Below, piece by piece: positions 28,915 through 37,848 of a stretch of 64,000 nucleotides of DNA. The position numbers and the translations under genes were made by a program. Every line of letters starts with the position of its first letter. Position 1 is the first letter of the stretch. This DNA is from Pseudoduganella plicata (GTDB lineage Bacteria; Pseudomonadota; Gammaproteobacteria; Burkholderiales; Burkholderiaceae_D). The notes beneath the pieces are model-generated. The model had not been told where the DNA came from and did not search any database. It saw only the letters and a program-made list of their open reading frames with translations. Location of the stretch: positions 5,456,001 to 5,520,000 of the forward strand of contig NZ_CP038026.1 in NCBI RefSeq assembly GCF_004421005.1. The letters run 5' to 3'.

Positions 28915-28942
28915 AAAAAAACGGCCCCGCAAGCGGAGCCGT
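28915..28942 (-). terminator. Intrinsic terminator after the protease/cohesin operon
   Basis: On the minus strand ACGGCTCCGC TT GCGGGGCCGT followed by T7; one G-U pair in a 10-bp stem. It lies 18 bases after the stop codon at 28960. Confidence 0.88.
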
Positions 28943-28959
28943 CCGTGAGCGTGCCGCCG

Positions 28960-29538
28960 TCAGAGCGCGCGCCGCCGCAGTGCTGCCAGACCAAGCAGGC
29001 CCGCGCCCATCATCAGGTAAGTGGCCGGCTCAGGCACTGCCTGCAGCGGCGTCGAGTCGATCCGCACGTCGATTGCGGCGTCGCGCGAGTCGACGAACAG
29101 CGCGTCGCCGAACGTCAGCGGCGTGCTGCCGACGCCGATCACGTCGAAGCGGATATGCGCCAGCGTGCCGCTGCCGCTGACACCGGCAGCCGGTCCCAGC
29201 AGGAGGTTATACACGTACGACACGGCACCCGTCGCGTTGTCGATATTCCCGAGGCCCGGCGACGTATTGCCGCCGCCGGCAAGGAAGTCGCCTTCCGTGA
29301 CCGCCGTTGCGCGCAGCACCGTCGGGTCGAACGCCAGCGAGAACTGGTAGCCGTACAGGTCGTCGACATCGTCGATCAGAATGGAGAGGTCGACGGTCGA
29401 ACCCACGACGGCGGGATTGGGGGAGGCGCTGACGGACAGCACGGCCGCGGCCGATGCTGCGGCCGACATGCCGGCCGATGCGGCGCCCAATACCAGTGCG
29501 ATCAACAGGCGTTTATTCCAGGCTTGCCAACTCTTCAC
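28960..29538 (-). CDS. Cohesin-domain protein with PEP-CTERM sorting signal
   Basis: 192 residues. Signal peptide to about residue 31 (ASAGMSAAASAA). Residues 33-165 look like a cohesin fold: VSASPNPAVVGSTVDLSI, then YGYQFSLAFDPTVLRATAV and GSGTLAHIRFDVIG are the usual cohesin strands. The C-terminus is a PEP-CTERM signal: VPEPATYLMMGAG, a hydrophobic stretch and RRR, which an exosortase would cleave to anchor or release the protein at the cell surface. It lies 61 bases downstream of a dockerin-bearing protease on the same strand. Cohesin-like domains in PEP-CTERM proteins are known, but pairing with a neighbouring dockerin is an inference. Confidence 0.85.
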   Translation of the reverse strand: MKSWQAWNKRLLIALVLGAASAGMSAAASAAAVLSVSASPNPAVVGSTVDLSILIDDVDDLYGYQFSLAFDPTVLRATAVTEGDFLAGGGNTSPGLGNIDNATGAVSYVYNLLLGPAAGVSGSGTLAHIRFDVIGVGSTPLTFGDALFVDSRDAAIDVRIDSTPLQAVPEPATYLMMGAGLLGLAALRRRAL

Positions 29539-29599
29539 AATTTTCTCCTAGCAGATGGTGGTGATCCGCCGGCCCGTGCCGGCGAACGTGCAGCGGCAA

Positions 29600-32500
29600 T
29601 CAGTTGCAGGCGGTACCCGCGGGCAGGCCCTGCGACACGGTGGTGAGGTCGCGCAGGTCGATCACGCCGTCCCCGTTGACGTCGGCGCGCGCCTCGTAAC
29701 CCGGCTGGCCGGTGCGTTTGCCGATGGCGGCCTTGACGATAGCCAGGTCGGCGCAGGCGACCGTGCCATCGCCGTTCACGTCGCCCGCCAGTGTGATGCG
29801 CAGGTTGGCGTTGGACACGTCGAAGAAGACGTTGCCGATCGCTTCCACCTTGATACGCCCCGTGGCCGTGGCGACGGCGGGCAGCGTGACCGCCTTGCTG
29901 CCCGTGTTCGGCGTGCTGGCCGCCAGCACGTGCGGGTACGTCTTGCCGCCATCGGTCGACAGCGTGATGCGTACGCTGGCCGTATTCACCGGCGCCGCGT
30001 TCGTGTTCGCCACGCTCCACGTCACCGTCTGGGTCGAGCCGCCTGCCACCGTCGCCGCGCCGTTGTGCGAGGTGACGCGGAACGGGCCGGCGTTCGGCGC
30101 CAGCGTCAGCTTCGTATTGGCGCTGGCAACGCCGCCCTGGCCGTCGCGCGCCGTCAGGCGGAAGTTCAGCGACGCCGGGTTGGCGTTCTCGCCCGGAACG
30201 CCGCGGTAGGCCGCCGTCGGCAGGAGCTCGGAGTAGCAGTCGATGTCCGCGGCAGTCGGCGTGGCGGCCGGTGTCGGGCATGCGCCGGTCTCGGCATTGG
30301 TATTGTTGGCCAGGATCTGCGCGATGTCGGGGAACACGCGCGTCGGGTCGGCTGTCGTGTGGTTCTCGCCAGGCGAGTTGTACTGGATCGTGCCGGTGCT
30401 GGTGACGACCGCCCGTTCGCCGAACTGGCGGAACAGCGGACCGCTGACCCTGGCGTTACCGAGCAGATCCACACCGTCGTCGCCGCCGCGGTCGTTCTGT
30501 TCCCACATGTAGGTGAGGGCATCGCCATCGCCGTCGGTGGCGCTGCCCGTCAGCGCGAACGGCGTGCGCACGGGAATCGTGTAGCCCTGGGGCGCCGTGA
30601 CGACGGGCGCCACGTTGCCGGTGGCAGTGATCTTGCCGCGGCGGTTCGTCGGCCCGCCGGCCACGATCTCGCCCACGAAGCCGCTGCAGCCGGCCGAACA
30701 GTTGACCACTTCCAGCGGCGTCACATTGGTGCCGGCCATCTGGCCGCCGAACGTCGCGGTGAAGCCGGCGTTGGTCACCGACGCGATCGTCACGACGCCG
30801 CCTGCCGGCCAGCCTTCGATGGCCTGGAGAGCCGTCTTGATGCGGGCGCCGGTCAGGCCGTTGCCGCGCACGATGGGTGCCGTCAGTTTGCCGTTCCAGC
30901 GCAGCTGGAATTGCTGGCTGGCGTTGGCAAACCCGCGCAGCACGACCTGCTGCACTTCGTTCAGGTCCTCTTCCGGCCCGGACGTGTAGGCGACGATCTC
31001 GTCGAAGCTGCGTTGCGACCAGTAGGGGTCGCTGTGCGGCTGCAGGTTGTCCGGGCCGCAGATGCCCGCATAGGCCATGATCGACGAGCCGCTGCCGGGC
31101 TCGACCGACGTTTCGGGATTGCGGTTGCCGCCCGTGCAGCTGCCGTTGGCACCGTCGAAGGTGTGGTTGCCCGAAAACTGGTGGCCCATTTCGTGCGCCA
31201 CGTAATCGACTGCGAAATAGTCGCCCACCGGCGTCGGCACACCCGTGCAGCCCTGCGCCTTGTAATTGCCGCCGACGACGCCCAGGCTGGCGACGCCGCC
31301 GCCGTTCAGGCCCAGCGCAATGTGGCCGATGTCGAAATTGCTGGCGCCGGCCAGCAGGCCCGTGACGATGCGGTTGCGGCCCAGCAGGCCGCCGCCGCAG
31401 CCGCTGGCCTGGCTAGGGGTGTAGCAGGCCGCTTCGCCGCACGGGCCGTTGGTGCCCGTCATCTGCGCCGTCGTATTGAGGTTCAGCGCGTCCGTGCCGT
31501 CGATCAGCACGAGGCGGATCGACGTTTCGTCTTCATAGATCTGCGTGACGCGATTGATCAGCGTGACCTTGGCTGCGGTGACGTTGGCCGAGCCGAAATA
31601 ATTGGCATACGACGGGTCCGTCACCAGCGCCAGACGGTAGGTGCGCAGCTGCGTGCCCGTGCTGACATTGGCCGCGTCGTCCGCCACCACATGGTAGGCG
31701 ACGTTGCCCGTGCGCGTGCCGTCGCTGGCGCTCACTTCATAGGCGCCCGTCGCGCCTTTCTGGTCGGCGCGCAGCGTGGCCTTGACGACGCCATCGGCGT
31801 CGGCCGTGGCGACGACCGTTTGCAGCGGCGCAGTCTCGCCCTCGGCGCGCACGGTCACGTTGACGGTGGCGCCCGGCGCGAAGCCGGCGCCGCGCACCTC
31901 CAGTGTGTCGCCGGCGCGATAGAAGCTGCGAGACAGGCTCAGCCGCGCCTCGGCTCCGCCGTTGCCCATATCCCGCTCGAACAGCGGACCGTGCTGGTTG
32001 GGCAGGTCGGCACGGTGGTAGCTGGCGTACAGGCTGTCGTCGAGGTGATAGTACGGGTCGACGTACCAGTTGCCGGACGTGGAGCGCACCGAGGCGTGCA
32101 GGCCCAGCGGCGTGATGTCCATGCGCAGCGTCGCGCCCGGATCGTCCAGGCCACGGCCTTTGTAGGTCTTGATGTCGGGGTGTTTCGCGGCGAGCCCCGC
32201 TTCCATGATGGGCGACTCGACGATTACGAAGCGCTGGTAGCCGCCGTCCGGATGCGGCAGCGAAATGGTCTGCTGGCCGACGACGGCGCCGTCGGCGCGC
32301 TCCATCGGCGTGCCGGCGGTAAGCGACTTCATGCCGCCCTTGTCGAGAATGGATGCATGAAATTTACGAGGCTTGACGGACAGCTGCCGGCCGCCACCGG
32401 TCGTCACGCCATCCGGCGGTACCGCCACGCTTTGCCAATACGGCGCTGCAGCCTGCGTGGCGACCGGTGCCCCGGCCTGGGCGGCCTGGGCGGGTGCGAG

Positions 32501-32620
32501 TGCGGCTGTCCAGCCGAGGGCGATACACAGGGCCAGCGTGGTACGTGCGCCGGGACCGCGCGCGCGGCGCGGGCAGTTCAGCCCATCCTGGCCGGATGGG
32601 GTTGAAAACTTCAATTTCAT
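29600..32620 (-). CDS. Secreted metzincin (reprolysin-like) metalloprotease with C-terminal dockerin
   Basis: 1006 residues from ATG 32620, with AAAGGACACC upstream. A signal peptide spans roughly residues 20-48 (LALCIALGWTAALAPAQA). A propeptide-like region is followed by a stretch with the extended zinc motif HEMGHQFSGNH at 476-486, the metzincin HExxHxxGxxH pattern. Later regions look like fibronectin or Ig-type beta domains. The last 60 residues contain two calcium-loop repeats, DVNGDGTVACADLAIVK and DVNGDGVIDLRDLTTV, a type I dockerin. The next gene encodes a cohesin-like PEP-CTERM protein, suggesting the protease docks to it outside the cell. Confidence 0.9.
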   Translation of the reverse strand: MKLKFSTPSGQDGLNCPRRARGPGARTTLALCIALGWTAALAPAQAAQAGAPVATQAAAPYWQSVAVPPDGVTTGGGRQLSVKPRKFHASILDKGGMKSLTAGTPMERADGAVVGQQTISLPHPDGGYQRFVIVESPIMEAGLAAKHPDIKTYKGRGLDDPGATLRMDITPLGLHASVRSTSGNWYVDPYYHLDDSLYASYHRADLPNQHGPLFERDMGNGGAEARLSLSRSFYRAGDTLEVRGAGFAPGATVNVTVRAEGETAPLQTVVATADADGVVKATLRADQKGATGAYEVSASDGTRTGNVAYHVVADDAANVSTGTQLRTYRLALVTDPSYANYFGSANVTAAKVTLINRVTQIYEDETSIRLVLIDGTDALNLNTTAQMTGTNGPCGEAACYTPSQASGCGGGLLGRNRIVTGLLAGASNFDIGHIALGLNGGGVASLGVVGGNYKAQGCTGVPTPVGDYFAVDYVAHEMGHQFSGNHTFDGANGSCTGGNRNPETSVEPGSGSSIMAYAGICGPDNLQPHSDPYWSQRSFDEIVAYTSGPEEDLNEVQQVVLRGFANASQQFQLRWNGKLTAPIVRGNGLTGARIKTALQAIEGWPAGGVVTIASVTNAGFTATFGGQMAGTNVTPLEVVNCSAGCSGFVGEIVAGGPTNRRGKITATGNVAPVVTAPQGYTIPVRTPFALTGSATDGDGDALTYMWEQNDRGGDDGVDLLGNARVSGPLFRQFGERAVVTSTGTIQYNSPGENHTTADPTRVFPDIAQILANNTNAETGACPTPAATPTAADIDCYSELLPTAAYRGVPGENANPASLNFRLTARDGQGGVASANTKLTLAPNAGPFRVTSHNGAATVAGGSTQTVTWSVANTNAAPVNTASVRITLSTDGGKTYPHVLAASTPNTGSKAVTLPAVATATGRIKVEAIGNVFFDVSNANLRITLAGDVNGDGTVACADLAIVKAAIGKRTGQPGYEARADVNGDGVIDLRDLTTVSQGLPAGTACN

Positions 32621-33440: not shown

Positions 33441-36400
33441 ATGACAATGCCCGACGCCTCCAGCAACTGGACCGATTTGACGCAAGCGCTGCGCAGCATG
33501 CAGCGCAACTACGAACGGGTCGGCGCCCAGACCCGGCTTGACATCGAGCGCCGCGTGCAGCGCTGGTCCAACCGTGCCGGCGACGCGCTGATGGACGTCG
33601 CCCAGGCGGGCGCGAACGCCAGCGGCGTGCCGTCGATGATGGCTGTGGGCATGGCACTGGAAGGCTCGGAGGCGCAGTTCCGCAAGCTGCTCAAGACGCA
33701 GCTCGAAGGCATCGACGTCTCGATGGTGGTCGACCTGCTGTTCGGCATTGCGAAAGAGATCGCCCTGTACCTGGGCGGTGGCGCGGTGCTGGGCGCTGCC
33801 GCGGGGGGGCGTCATCGGGGCGTTTGCCGGCGGCGTCGGTGCGATTCCCGGCGCGGCCATCGGCGCGCAGGCCGGCGCGGCAGTCGGTGGCGAAATCCTC
33901 GCCTGGATGGGCCTGGGCATGCTGGTCATGGACGTCAGCAAGACCGTTCCCGACATGTGCCGGGAATTCGGCCACGGTTTTGCCACGGCCTGGTCGGCCG
34001 GGCTGTTGCCGGGGAACGCGCACGGGGCGCGCAAGGCGCTGATGGAGGACGCGACCCAGTCATTCGCGCACGGCGAATTCCTGCTCGTCAAGGCGGTGCT
34101 GACGGCGCTGGTGCTGTACCTGTCGCGCGGCCAGGCGAAAACGCTGATCCAGAATCTGTCGAAAAGCAAGCTGGGCCCGAGGTTCGGCGAATGGGTGCGA
34201 CAGAACGAAGGCGCGCTGCGCCGTCACCCGAACCTGCAGCCGAAGACGGCCAGCGCGCAAGGCGCCGTCGAAGGCGGCGCCGCCAAGCCCGCCGCCCGGC
34301 CGGCACCCGACAAAACGCCGGAACCGTCCCGTCCGGCCACGCAAGGCGAAGCCAGGCGCCCAGCGCCCTGCGAGCTGGTGGGCCACCCCGTCAATCCGAA
34401 CACGGGCAGCAAGATCCTCATGGGCGAGCTCGACCTGGACTTCGCGCTGCCGGCGCCGCTGCCGCTTGTCTGGCAACGTACCTACAGCTCGGCCCTGCGG
34501 CAGACGGGCTGGCTGGGCCAAGGCTGGGCCTTGCCCATCAGCGACACGCTGCGGATCGGCGCGGACGAAGTCGTCATCGAGGATGCGTTCGAGCGCGCCG
34601 TCACGTTCTCGCTGCCGCGCGTTAGCGAAGCCATCTATTCGCCGTCCGAGCAGATCGCGCTGGAGCGCACGGGCGACACCACGTTCGAGCTGATCGACAA
34701 CAACGGCTTGCGCACGCAGTTTGCCGTGCTGCACGGCGGCGACACGGCGCGCCTGGTTGGCTGGCGCGATCGCAACAACAACCATATCCGCATCGACTAC
34801 GACGCCCGGCAATTGCCGGTCCGCATCGAGGACAGTGCCGGCCACAGTCTGGCGCTGGAATTCGGCAACGTGCACGGCGGCGTTCGTCTGCTGGGCGTGG
34901 CGCTGCTGTCGGAAGGCGCTGCCGAAACGCTGGTGCGCTACGAATACGACGCCATCGGCGACCTGCGCCGCGTGCGCAACCGCGTTGGTGACGTTGTGCG
35001 TCAGTTTGCCTACAGCCACCACATCATGGTGGAACACGGCCAGCCCGACGGTCTCATTTCGCGCTATGAATACGACGTCGAAAGTCCCGATGGCAAGGTG
35101 CTGCGCAACTGGACGAACCTCGGCCAGGTGTGGACGTTCGAGTATCTGCCGAAGGAGACGGTCGTCACCGACGGGCTCGGCCGGATACAACGTTACCGCT
35201 TCGATGCCAAGGGCCGCCTGATCGAACACATCGACGCCAGCGGTGGCGTCACCACGCACCAGCTCGACGCCAACGGCAACCTGCTGGCGCTGACGGACCC
35301 GGCCGGCCGCCAGGTGCGCTACCGCTACGACGAGCGCAGCCGCATCATTCGCATCGAGCGGGGCGGCAATGGGACGGGCATCGTCTACGACGCCCGCTTC
35401 GACAAGCCGGCCTTTATCACGGACGCGCTCGGCGCGAGGACAACCCTGCGCTACGACGCGCTGGGCAATCTCACCAGCGTGACGAACCCGCTGGGCCAGC
35501 GCACCGCGTACCAGTACGACGACCGCGGCCTGCCGGTCCAGGTGACGGACGCGCGCGGCGGTGTCAAGAAGCTCGACTACAACCGCGCCGGCCAGCTGAT
35601 CGCCTACACGGACTGCTCGGGCAGCACGAGCACCTTCAGCTACGACCCGCAAGGCCGCCTCGTCCGCGCCGTCGATGCCAACGGCAACGCCAGCACGTAC
35701 GCCTACGACGCACTCGGCCGTCTGGCATCGGTCACGCACGCGGACGGCGCCACCGAACGCTACGAATACGACAGCCTCGGCCGCCTGATCGCCCACGTCG
35801 ACCCGGCCGGTCACCGCACCGCCTACGAACTCGACCGCGACGGCAAGCCTTTACGGCGCATCGACGCGCGCGGCGGTGTACTGGAATACCGCTACGACGA
35901 AGCCCGCCGCATCGCCGAGCTGATCAACGAAAACGGCGACGCCCACCGCTTTGTCTACGACGCGCTGGATCGCCTGGCCGAAGAGACGACGTTCGATGCG
36001 CGCCTGACGCGCTACACCTACGACGGCAGCGGCCTGCTCGCCGGCAAGGAAGAGCTAGGCTGCGCCCCGCGCGACGAGACGACGCCGATTGCGACGACGT
36101 ACGTGCGCGACCCGCTGGGCCAGCTGACGGAGAAGGTGATCTCGCGTGTGACAGGCATCGCGCAAGCCCAGCAACTGCGGCTGCGCTTCGCTTACGACGC
36201 GCTGGGCCGGCTGACGCAGGCCATCAACGCCGACGCCACCGTCAGCCTGGGCTATGACGCGCTGGGGCAGCTGATCACGGAGGCGACGGAAGCGTCCGGC
36301 ACGACATCGCTGCTGCGCCACGCTTACGACGAGCTGGGCAACCGGGTGCAGACGACGTTGCCGGATGGCCGCGTGCTCAACTCGCTCTTCTACGGCTCGG

Positions 36401-37848
36401 GCCACCTGCACCAGATCAACCTGGACGGAGACCTTGTCACCGACATCGAACGTGACATGACGCACCGGATGATCTCGCGCACGCAGGGCGCACTGGTCAG
36501 CCAGTTCCAGTACGACCAAGTCGGCCGGCTGCTGTCGCAAACGGCGGGCCAAGGCGCCGAGACCATCATCGCGCGCAAGTACGAATACGACGCGATCGGC
36601 AACCTGATCTCCATCGACGACCGTCGCAACGGTGTCACGCACTACAGCTACGACCCGATCGGCCGCATCCTGTCGGCAGTGCAACCCGACCTGACCGAAC
36701 GCTTCGCCTTCGACCCGGCGCACAACCTGCTCGACACCACAGTCGGCTCAGGCGGACGTGTGGAAGGCAACCGCGTCCGCGTCTACGAGGACAAGCGCTA
36801 CGACTACGATGCGCATGGCAACGTCAGCGAAAAGCTGGTCGGCAAGCATACCCGGATGCGCTTCGAGTGGAATCCCGCGCATCAGCTGGTGAAAAGCATC
36901 GTTGCGCGCAATTCTTCCGACACTGCGCAGACGACCCGCTATGTCTACGATCCGTTTGGCCGTCGTATCGCCAAGCGCGATGCGTTCGGCACTACTCGCT
37001 TCGTCTGGGACGGCAACCGACTGCTGTGTGAGCAGCGCGCAAGTCATTGCCGGACCTACGTTTACGGCGAAGACGCATTTGTGCCGCTGGCACGAATCGA
37101 TTCCGTCAACAGTAGCGATGGCACTTCGCTGGCGGAAGTTCGGCATCTGCACACGGACCACCTCGGCACGCCGCGCGAGCTGACGGACTCGGATGGACGG
37201 GTGGTTTGGGCTGCGCAGTATCGGGCTTGGGGTAACGTACTTCGGGTCGTGGATGAAGAAGTGGCAACGACGCCCGCGGCAGGGGATGCACAGCTTCTCG
37301 ACGATGCGCAGCCGATTCGCTTCCAGGGACAATACTTCGACAACGAAACCGGATTGCATTACAACCGATTCCGCTATTACGATCCGGATATTGGGCGCTT
37401 TATTTCCATAGATCCGCTTGGTTTAGCAGGCGCGGCGAATACGTTCGGCTACGCAATCAATCCGGTGCAATGGGTTGATCCCTTAGGGCTAAGTCCTTGC
37501 AGGCCCTCTCTTGGGCTATCCTATGATAAGAGCACGCGAACGTGGACAACCCCAGCAGGACTTGCTTACGGCGTAGGATCTGTTCATGGAAACCGCATTC
37601 GACATATATTGGATCACGCCGCACCGAATCTAAGCAAAACTAACCATAGCGTTTTTAACGTAGACCGTCGGGAAGTCTTAGGCCTGGTTGATGAAGCTTG
37701 GCGTACAAGGACGAACCCTCTGCCGAATGATCCGGGCGCTTATGTGATACCTATGGGCAGGGCAATAGGTACCGCCGGTGAGTCAAGCATAAAAATTATC
37801 GTGCGCCCGGGAACGAATAAAGTAATTACTGCTTACCCTATTTTTTAG
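33441..37848 (+). CDS. Rhs-family polymorphic toxin, frameshifted at a G7 run
   Basis: If the frame is corrected it encodes about 1468 residues. Residues 1-105 are soluble and helical; 107-150 is a glycine-zipper membrane region (GVIGAFAGGVGAIPGAAIG); DUF6531 begins near 309 (NTGSKILMGELDLDF); Rhs/YD repeats fill about 400-1270; the core ends with RFRYYDPDIGRFISIDPLGL and YAINPVQWVDPLGL near 1350. The tip of about 118 residues (GNRIRHILDHAAPNL to the end NKVITAYPIF) is the toxin, on AT-richer DNA. Its ending resembles BECR-fold ribonuclease toxins; that assignment is inference. A G7 run (33803-33809) needs six Gs to join the two frames. There is no PAAR domain; export probably uses a type VI system elsewhere. 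Confidence 0.85.

Follow-up and report, generated by a model that had tools for sequence, protein, structure and literature searches.

A dockerin-bearing metzincin beside a PEP-CTERM cohesin protein in Pseudoduganella plicata: a putative one-enzyme docking cassette

Docking of proteins through cohesin and dockerin modules is known mainly from cellulose-degrading anaerobes. Here we describe two adjacent genes of the Gram-negative bacterium Pseudoduganella plicata, located on the minus strand of a 64,000-nucleotide stretch of contig NZ_CP038026.1 (assembly GCF_004421005.1, positions 5,456,001 to 5,520,000; hereafter the window). One encodes a predicted secreted M12B-like metzincin metalloprotease ending in a type I dockerin, and the other a small cohesin protein with a PEP-CTERM sorting tail. 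We consider it likely that the pair constitutes a minimal docking cassette of one enzyme and one cohesin with an exosortase-type anchor.

Among the closest described systems are OlpA and OlpC of Clostridium thermocellum, a Gram-positive cellulolytic anaerobe, in which one cohesin on a surface protein directly holds a dockerin enzyme and the anchor is of the S-layer homology or cell-wall type. Complexes containing the OlpA cohesin (3ul4) and the OlpC cohesin (4dh2) are among the fold matches of both models described here. The present pair differs in having a PEP-CTERM tail, in occurring in Gram-negative bacteria, in providing one cohesin per enzyme gene, and in that the cargo in related pairs is mostly not directed at cellulose. 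A second parallel is NagJ-NagH of Clostridium perfringens (2ozn), where a non-cellulosomal cohesin binds the dockerin of another protein. 2ozn_B ranks fourth among the matches of our dockerin model and the NagJ cohesin matches our cohesin alignment; in that system, however, the cohesin is borne by the enzyme itself and not by a small anchored protein.

For freshwater Planctomycetes, a hypothetical planctosome has been proposed in which M12B reprolysin-like peptidases are docked at the outer surface by a non-cellulosomal cohesin-dockerin system (PMC6461901), and this proposal resembles our reading of the present pair. It involves a 2,210-residue anchor with a lamin-tail domain plus an adaptor protein, whereas a PEP-CTERM tail or a two-gene cassette with interchangeable cargo is not described in the available sections of that paper. 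On the side of the anchor, PepA of Zoogloea and Aquincola likewise combines a signal peptide and a PEP-CTERM tail with an exosortase in the genome, but it is described for floc formation, and the accessible text does not mention a dockerin (PMC9850573). The role of cohesin and dockerin modules outside cellulose degraders was called unknown in the available part of a study of methanotrophic archaea, whose domain table lists both dockerin and exosortase (PMC5244752). We found no paper in the open-access literature that combines a cohesin or a dockerin with PEP-CTERM. Thus, the principle of docking is known from cellulosomes, C. perfringens and the hypothetical planctosome, and the particular form of the cassette was not found in that literature. 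An earlier sequence-only reading of the window knew of no description of such a docking system for this family; this holds for the form of the cassette within the open-access literature, but cohesin-dockerin docking of M12B-like peptidases had already been proposed for Planctomycetes, as the consulted sections of PMC6461901 state. The surprising part is the distribution of the pair and the exchange of its cargo.

The protease, the cohesin protein and their genes

The protease gene (29600..32620, minus strand) encodes 1006 residues and was characterized by Pfam, motif inspection, BLASTP and alignment. The protein matches Reprolysin_2 (E 7e-29) and contains the sequence HEMGHQFSGNH, which has Ser at the place of the consensus Gly and which we take to be a near match to the metzincin consensus HExxHxxGxxH. 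It also contains a SIMAY stretch, presumably the metzincin Met-turn. Residues H476, E477, H480, H486 and M515 are invariant in the alignment of the protease family. Together, the near-consensus zinc motif, the Met-turn and the Reprolysin profile point to an M12B-like metzincin. BLASTP identified 19 further loci in the host's family with a homologous protease (63-71% identity); in the alignment, the 20 M12B dockerin proteases, comprising the window protein and these 19, show 61-72% identity to the window protein.

The dockerin module consists of the final 78 residues plus the stop codon (29600..29836, minus strand), and was delimited by Pfam, AlphaFold and matches in fold and sequence to PDB entries. 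The Dockerin_1 profile (PF00404) matches residues 945-997 (E 1.2e-12), and both calcium-type loops are complete (D947-N949-D951...D958 and D980-N982-D984...D991). The module contains C956 in loop 1, R990 in loop 2 and C1005 near the C-terminus. Its AlphaFold model has a mean pLDDT (predicted local distance difference test) of 89, and the top 26 PDB matches of this model are dockerins or dockerin-bearing chains, led by 2y3n_B; the best Foldseek E value is only 1.7e-3, the domain being very small. The closest solved relative in sequence is again 2y3n_B (E 1.5e-10), with calmodulins giving weaker matches. Profile, loops and fold agree on a type I dockerin with two duplicated F-hand calcium loops and their helices.

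The neighbouring gene (28960..29538, minus strand) encodes a 192-residue protein with a signal-peptide-like N-terminus, a cohesin domain and a PEP-CTERM tail, as judged from Pfam, AlphaFold, fold matches and alignment. Residues 44-153 match the cohesin profile PF00963 above its cut-off (E 5.6e-11). The model, computed with the family alignment as input, has a mean pLDDT of 92, and all 50 listed PDB matches belong to cohesin entries, with 4u3s_A and 2xdh at the top. A profile built from the cohesins matches 24 sequences, one of which is 2y3n_A (E 5.6e-5). The significant profile match and the fold both identify a cohesin domain. The tail, residues 167-190 (28969..29040, minus strand), matches PF07589 (E 2.6e-7) and TIGR02595 and is predicted to form a C-terminal helix. 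With the N-terminal helix of the model, a putative signal peptide, and an exosortase in the genome, the protein has the features of an exosortase substrate. In addition, the AlphaFold models of cohesin and dockerin match opposite sides of the same solved complexes (2y3n A/B, 5m0y A/B and 4u3s A/B).

The cohesin gene starts with GTG (29538) and the protease gene with ATG (32620), preceded by the Shine-Dalgarno-like sequences AGGAG and AAGGA, respectively. The AGGAG lies in the 61-base intergenic stretch (29539..29599, minus strand by gene orientation). A terminator scan and folding revealed an intrinsic-terminator-like hairpin downstream of the cohesin gene (28919..28944, minus strand; -21.8 kcal/mol, z-score only -1.2). 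This site is weak taken alone, as the region has three terminator-like sites where 2.6 would be expected. The scan revealed no minus-strand terminator-like site between the two genes, and a scan of the gene-pair region for promoter-like sites returned none. Co-transcription of the two genes is plausible because no terminator-like site separates them and one lies right after the cohesin gene. Coordinates, strand, gap and domain content of both genes, including the small PEP-CTERM-anchored cohesin-like domain next to the dockerin metzincin, are as the sequence-only reading had given them, now backed by Pfam and by AlphaFold fold matches.

The host genome (5.89 Mb, one contig) was scanned for domain matches at E <= 0.001. 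It contains a single dockerin, that of the window protease, and two cohesins, the second being the C-terminal tail of a secretin (L002, G000:C1:2831108-2831395). There are two exosortases and 59 PEP-CTERM matches. No multi-cohesin scaffoldin was found in this genome, in which the PEP-CTERM cohesin protein carries a single cohesin and is the only cohesin match apart from the secretin. A cellulosome was rejected, with no multi-cohesin scaffold in the genome and a protease instead of a plant-wall enzyme as cargo; three relatives (L140-L142) encode plant-wall-type cargo (GH10). The best-supported reading is that, by analogy, the pair would work like the single-cohesin surface anchor of a cellulosome, yet is not a cellulosome.

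Adjacency of cohesin and dockerin genes

The distribution of the modules was analyzed in 294 genomes of the host's family, drawn without regard to pairing. PF00404 has 44 matches in 37 of these genomes and PF00963 has 83 matches in 67. For 20 of the 24 cohesins encoded in frames shorter than 500 residues, a Pfam dockerin lies no more than 1.5 kb away. The number rises to 22 of 24 with our own dockerin profile, the two added cases (L083 and L085) having an adjoining dockerin below the Pfam cut-off; of the other two, L082 is an orphan and L086 a short frame. None of the 59 cohesins in long frames has a dockerin within 20 kb, and all 17 of these that were scanned are secretins with a C-terminal cohesin. 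Long-frame cohesins occur in 49 of the 294 genomes. All 20 genomes that encode an M12B dockerin protease have a cohesin-PEP-CTERM gene as its neighbour.

From the point of view of the dockerins, 20 of the 44 matches have a Pfam cohesin neighbour. Four more (L081, L088, L090 and L092) adjoin a divergent cohesin-like gene detected by our own profile, the call for L088 being marginal (E 0.03 with our profile, 0.013 with Pfam). The other 20 comprise eight proteins of about 400 residues, eight frames of more than 2,000 residues, a 113-residue frame, and L087, L089 and L091. The eight proteins of about 400 residues (L095-L102) were set aside, as they contain half a motif in mid-protein and have no cohesin-profile match in their 11-kb loci. 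For the eight very long frames no Pfam cohesin match was found on their contigs, the ends of these frames lying mostly beyond the fetched DNA. Loci L106-L110, from several family genomes, contain dockerin modules within giant proteins with frames of more than 11,000 residues. For the dockerin of L087, a weak cohesin-like gene lies at a distance of two genes; the products of this row of three (L087:3487-7574) are the weak cohesin-like protein, whose PEP-CTERM match is sub-threshold, an alpha/beta-hydrolase-like protein and the dockerin protein.

A second scan, across genome contigs, used a pattern built from the cohesin alone and returned 41 loci. A dockerin open reading frame (ORF) adjoins the cohesin ORF in 38 of them, with a gap of less than 1 kb; at least nine of the 38 are shared with the family sample, so that the two sets are not independent. 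Two of the three unpaired loci are from Poribacteria and have both modules in one protein, and the third, from Saprospiraceae, has no dockerin match. The two Poribacteria loci (L149 and L150) are from metagenome-assembled genomes, and L149 has a second cohesin ORF adjoining. The 38 pairs occur in three gene orders: the dockerin gene comes first in 20, the genes diverge in 14 (Paucibacter, Roseateles, Rubrivivax and kin), and the cohesin gene comes first in four (Aquincola, two Pseudorhodoferax and Schlegelella). Where the genes diverge or the cohesin gene comes first, the dockerin is encoded at the end of the cargo gene that is remote from the cohesin, and the two modules are therefore unlikely to have moved together without the cargo. 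The retained pairing across layouts suggests selection. One pair (L146) is from a metagenome-assembled genome named Bryobacter and may reflect transfer or contamination. A near-match scan of plasmids revealed no relative.

The sequence-only reading had held that its docking idea would fall if most relatives had the two genes in separate places; the reverse was observed, both in the 20 genomes with the M12B protease and in the cohesin-seeded loci. It had also spoken only of a protease and had proposed a search for the pair across Oxalobacteraceae. The pair is confined neither to metzincins nor to that group, other cargo and other taxa being represented.

Exchange of cargo and two sequence classes

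The metzincin motif is present in 30 of the 38 seeded pairs. We compared 60 pairs, after removal of duplicates and of L087, L215, L221 and L254 (distant or uncertain); L230 and L252 were not entered. The dockerins of 51 pairs, class A, have a Cys in loop 1 and another near the C-terminus, and all 51 neighbours contain the cohesin motif [DE]L[YFA]x[YF][QN][FY]. An Arg precedes the last Asp of loop 2 in 49 of these 51 dockerins. The nine dockerins of class B do not have the loop-1 Cys, and none of their nine neighbouring cohesins has the class A motif. The match between dockerin class and cohesin class (Fisher p 7e-11) is a description and not an independent test, because shared ancestry is ignored and the motifs were chosen after the alignment had been viewed. 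In addition, several of the class B pairs came from a search next to dockerins, which partly builds in their adjacency.

By Pfam, the cargo of class A includes, besides metzincins, GDSL lipases (L083, L085, L145 and L147), the xylanase-type GH10 proteins (L140, L141 and L142) and a penicillin amidase (L143), whose dockerin was found by our own profile (E 2e-9) and not by Pfam. L146 encodes an Ig-type protein without a catalytic family. The cohesins beside non-metzincin class A cargo exceed the Pfam cut-off in all seven cases scanned (L083, L085, L140, L143, L145, L146 and L147), and those of L140 and L143 are the only ones among the seven with a PEP-CTERM match above cut-off. Class B cargo comprises a GDSL lipase (L232), a C39-like peptidase (L081), a glucose/sorbosone dehydrogenase (L248), an endonuclease I with an exo/endonuclease-phosphatase (L261) and an Ig/NHL-type protein (L088); for L090, L092, L241 and L258 Pfam gives no catalytic family. 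Three of the nine class B tails (L081, L088 and L092) exceed the PEP-CTERM cut-off.

Docking weighed against its alternatives

PEP-CTERM proteins have been described as associated with the surface or the matrix, their final attachment being left unsettled in the available sections of PMC9850573 and PMC12188702. An exosortase is present in all 20 genomes with the M12B pair, compared with 160 of the 294 family genomes (158 over the cut-off), an enrichment with a Fisher p of 3e-6 that is uncorrected for kinship. Of 33 tested genomes that have pairs or single modules, 32 contain an exosortase, and the lone miss is an 85%-complete genome. The computed support for a docking cassette consists of the domains, the fold matches, the adjacency in three gene orders, the replacement of cargo and the co-occurrence with exosortase.

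In such a cassette, both proteins would be exported through their signal peptides. Exosortase would process the PEP-CTERM tail of the cohesin protein and so bring the cohesin to the surface of the cell or into the exopolysaccharide, and the protease would fold outside the cell with its dockerin loops filled by calcium. The dockerin would then bind the cohesin non-covalently, and the enzyme would be kept near the cell and not lost. We infer in this way physical binding, its dependence on calcium, cleavage by exosortase and the final location. The protease probably serves extracellular protein breakdown in biofilm or flocs, which is a guess.

A broader possibility is a general display of swappable enzymes in exosortase-bearing Gram-negative bacteria. 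Each exported enzyme would come with a cohesin anchor matched to it, the specificities falling into two or more orthogonal classes, and proteases, lipases, nucleases, xylanases and amidases would be fixed in the surface matrix. For this wider reading we judge the balance to be even; our confidence in it is lowered by the fact that most class B cohesins are below the Pfam cut-off.

Several observations weigh against docking or against its generality. The family sample includes an orphan cohesin-PEP-CTERM gene (L082:10160-10744), for which no dockerin match was found across the 16-kb locus and Pfam gives none in the genome, and two dockerin proteins (L089 and L091) without a cohesin match in their 14-kb loci. 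Outside the family only six of 41 dockerin loci (L215, L221, L230, L232, L241 and L248) have a clear adjoining cohesin by our own profile, and three are ambiguous (L222, L242 and L243), a count in which some contigs end close by and for which the Burkholderiales-built profile will miss distant cohesins. In class A, the cohesin-protein tails of L083, L085, L145 and L146 give no PEP-CTERM match and that of L147 is below cut-off; the first calcium loop is degenerate in the GDSL proteins L083, L085, L145 and L147. Only one of the nine class B cohesins (L258) exceeds the Pfam cut-off, and several class B dockerins are also below it. Finally, mirror-tree analysis gave a dockerin-cohesin distance correlation of 0.55 with the catalytic domain as control, but this dropped to 0.26 when the remainder of the protease served as control and to -0.13 (p 0.90) in the 14 divergent pairs. 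Certain other segments of the protease equal or surpass the dockerin in this correlation. With the signal reduced and then gone in divergent pairs, the mirror-tree result was dropped as evidence of specific pairing.

This weak signal would suit an explanation in which the two modules are homologues that do not bind, the dockerin being a calcium-stabilised C-terminal cap for folding or secretion and the PEP-CTERM protein an unrelated matrix protein. The abundance of family cohesins on secretin tails with no dockerin nearby, and of PEP-CTERM genes in the host genome, is also compatible with it. However, adjacency persists with unrelated cargo and in all three gene orders, and the neighbours of short cohesins are quite unlike those of secretin cohesins; we consider this explanation rather unlikely. 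A cohesin protein that acts as chaperone or inhibitor, holding the protease during export and later removed instead of forming a stable surface anchor, would predict equally tight gene linkage, and whether PEP-CTERM proteins stay attached or are set free is not decided in the accessible part of PMC12188702. Against this, the same type of cohesin is found beside proteases, lipases, GH10 proteins and a penicillin amidase, which a general anchor fits better, and a transient helper is in our view very unlikely. That the dockerin acts as a secretion signal by attaching the enzyme to the cohesin tail carried by an outer-membrane secretin, with the PEP-CTERM neighbour secondary, is scarcely credible: the host does have such a secretin, but long-frame cohesins occur in 4 of 20 pair genomes versus 45 of 274 others (p 0.75), and for lack of association with the M12B pair the secretin cohesin was rejected as the true partner.

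If the docking cassette is real, PEP-CTERM proteins would gain a concrete job as holders of enzymes in the surface matrix, and display on Gram-negative cells could draw on small docking pairs that may be orthogonal. Since each candidate dockerin has its candidate cohesin beside it, tests of partner, specificity and anchoring in culturable betaproteobacteria need to deal with just two genes at a time.

Two minor observations concern dockerins elsewhere and the surroundings of the pair. Gammaproteobacterial dockerins of nine loci (L215, L223, L225, L226, L233, L236, L238, L252 and L254) share a PGPSG-type tail soon after loop 2, possibly a sorting or recognition tail. Near the pair, on the opposite strand of the window (33748-37848, plus strand), lies a gene for an RHS-repeat protein with a DUF6861 N-terminal part.

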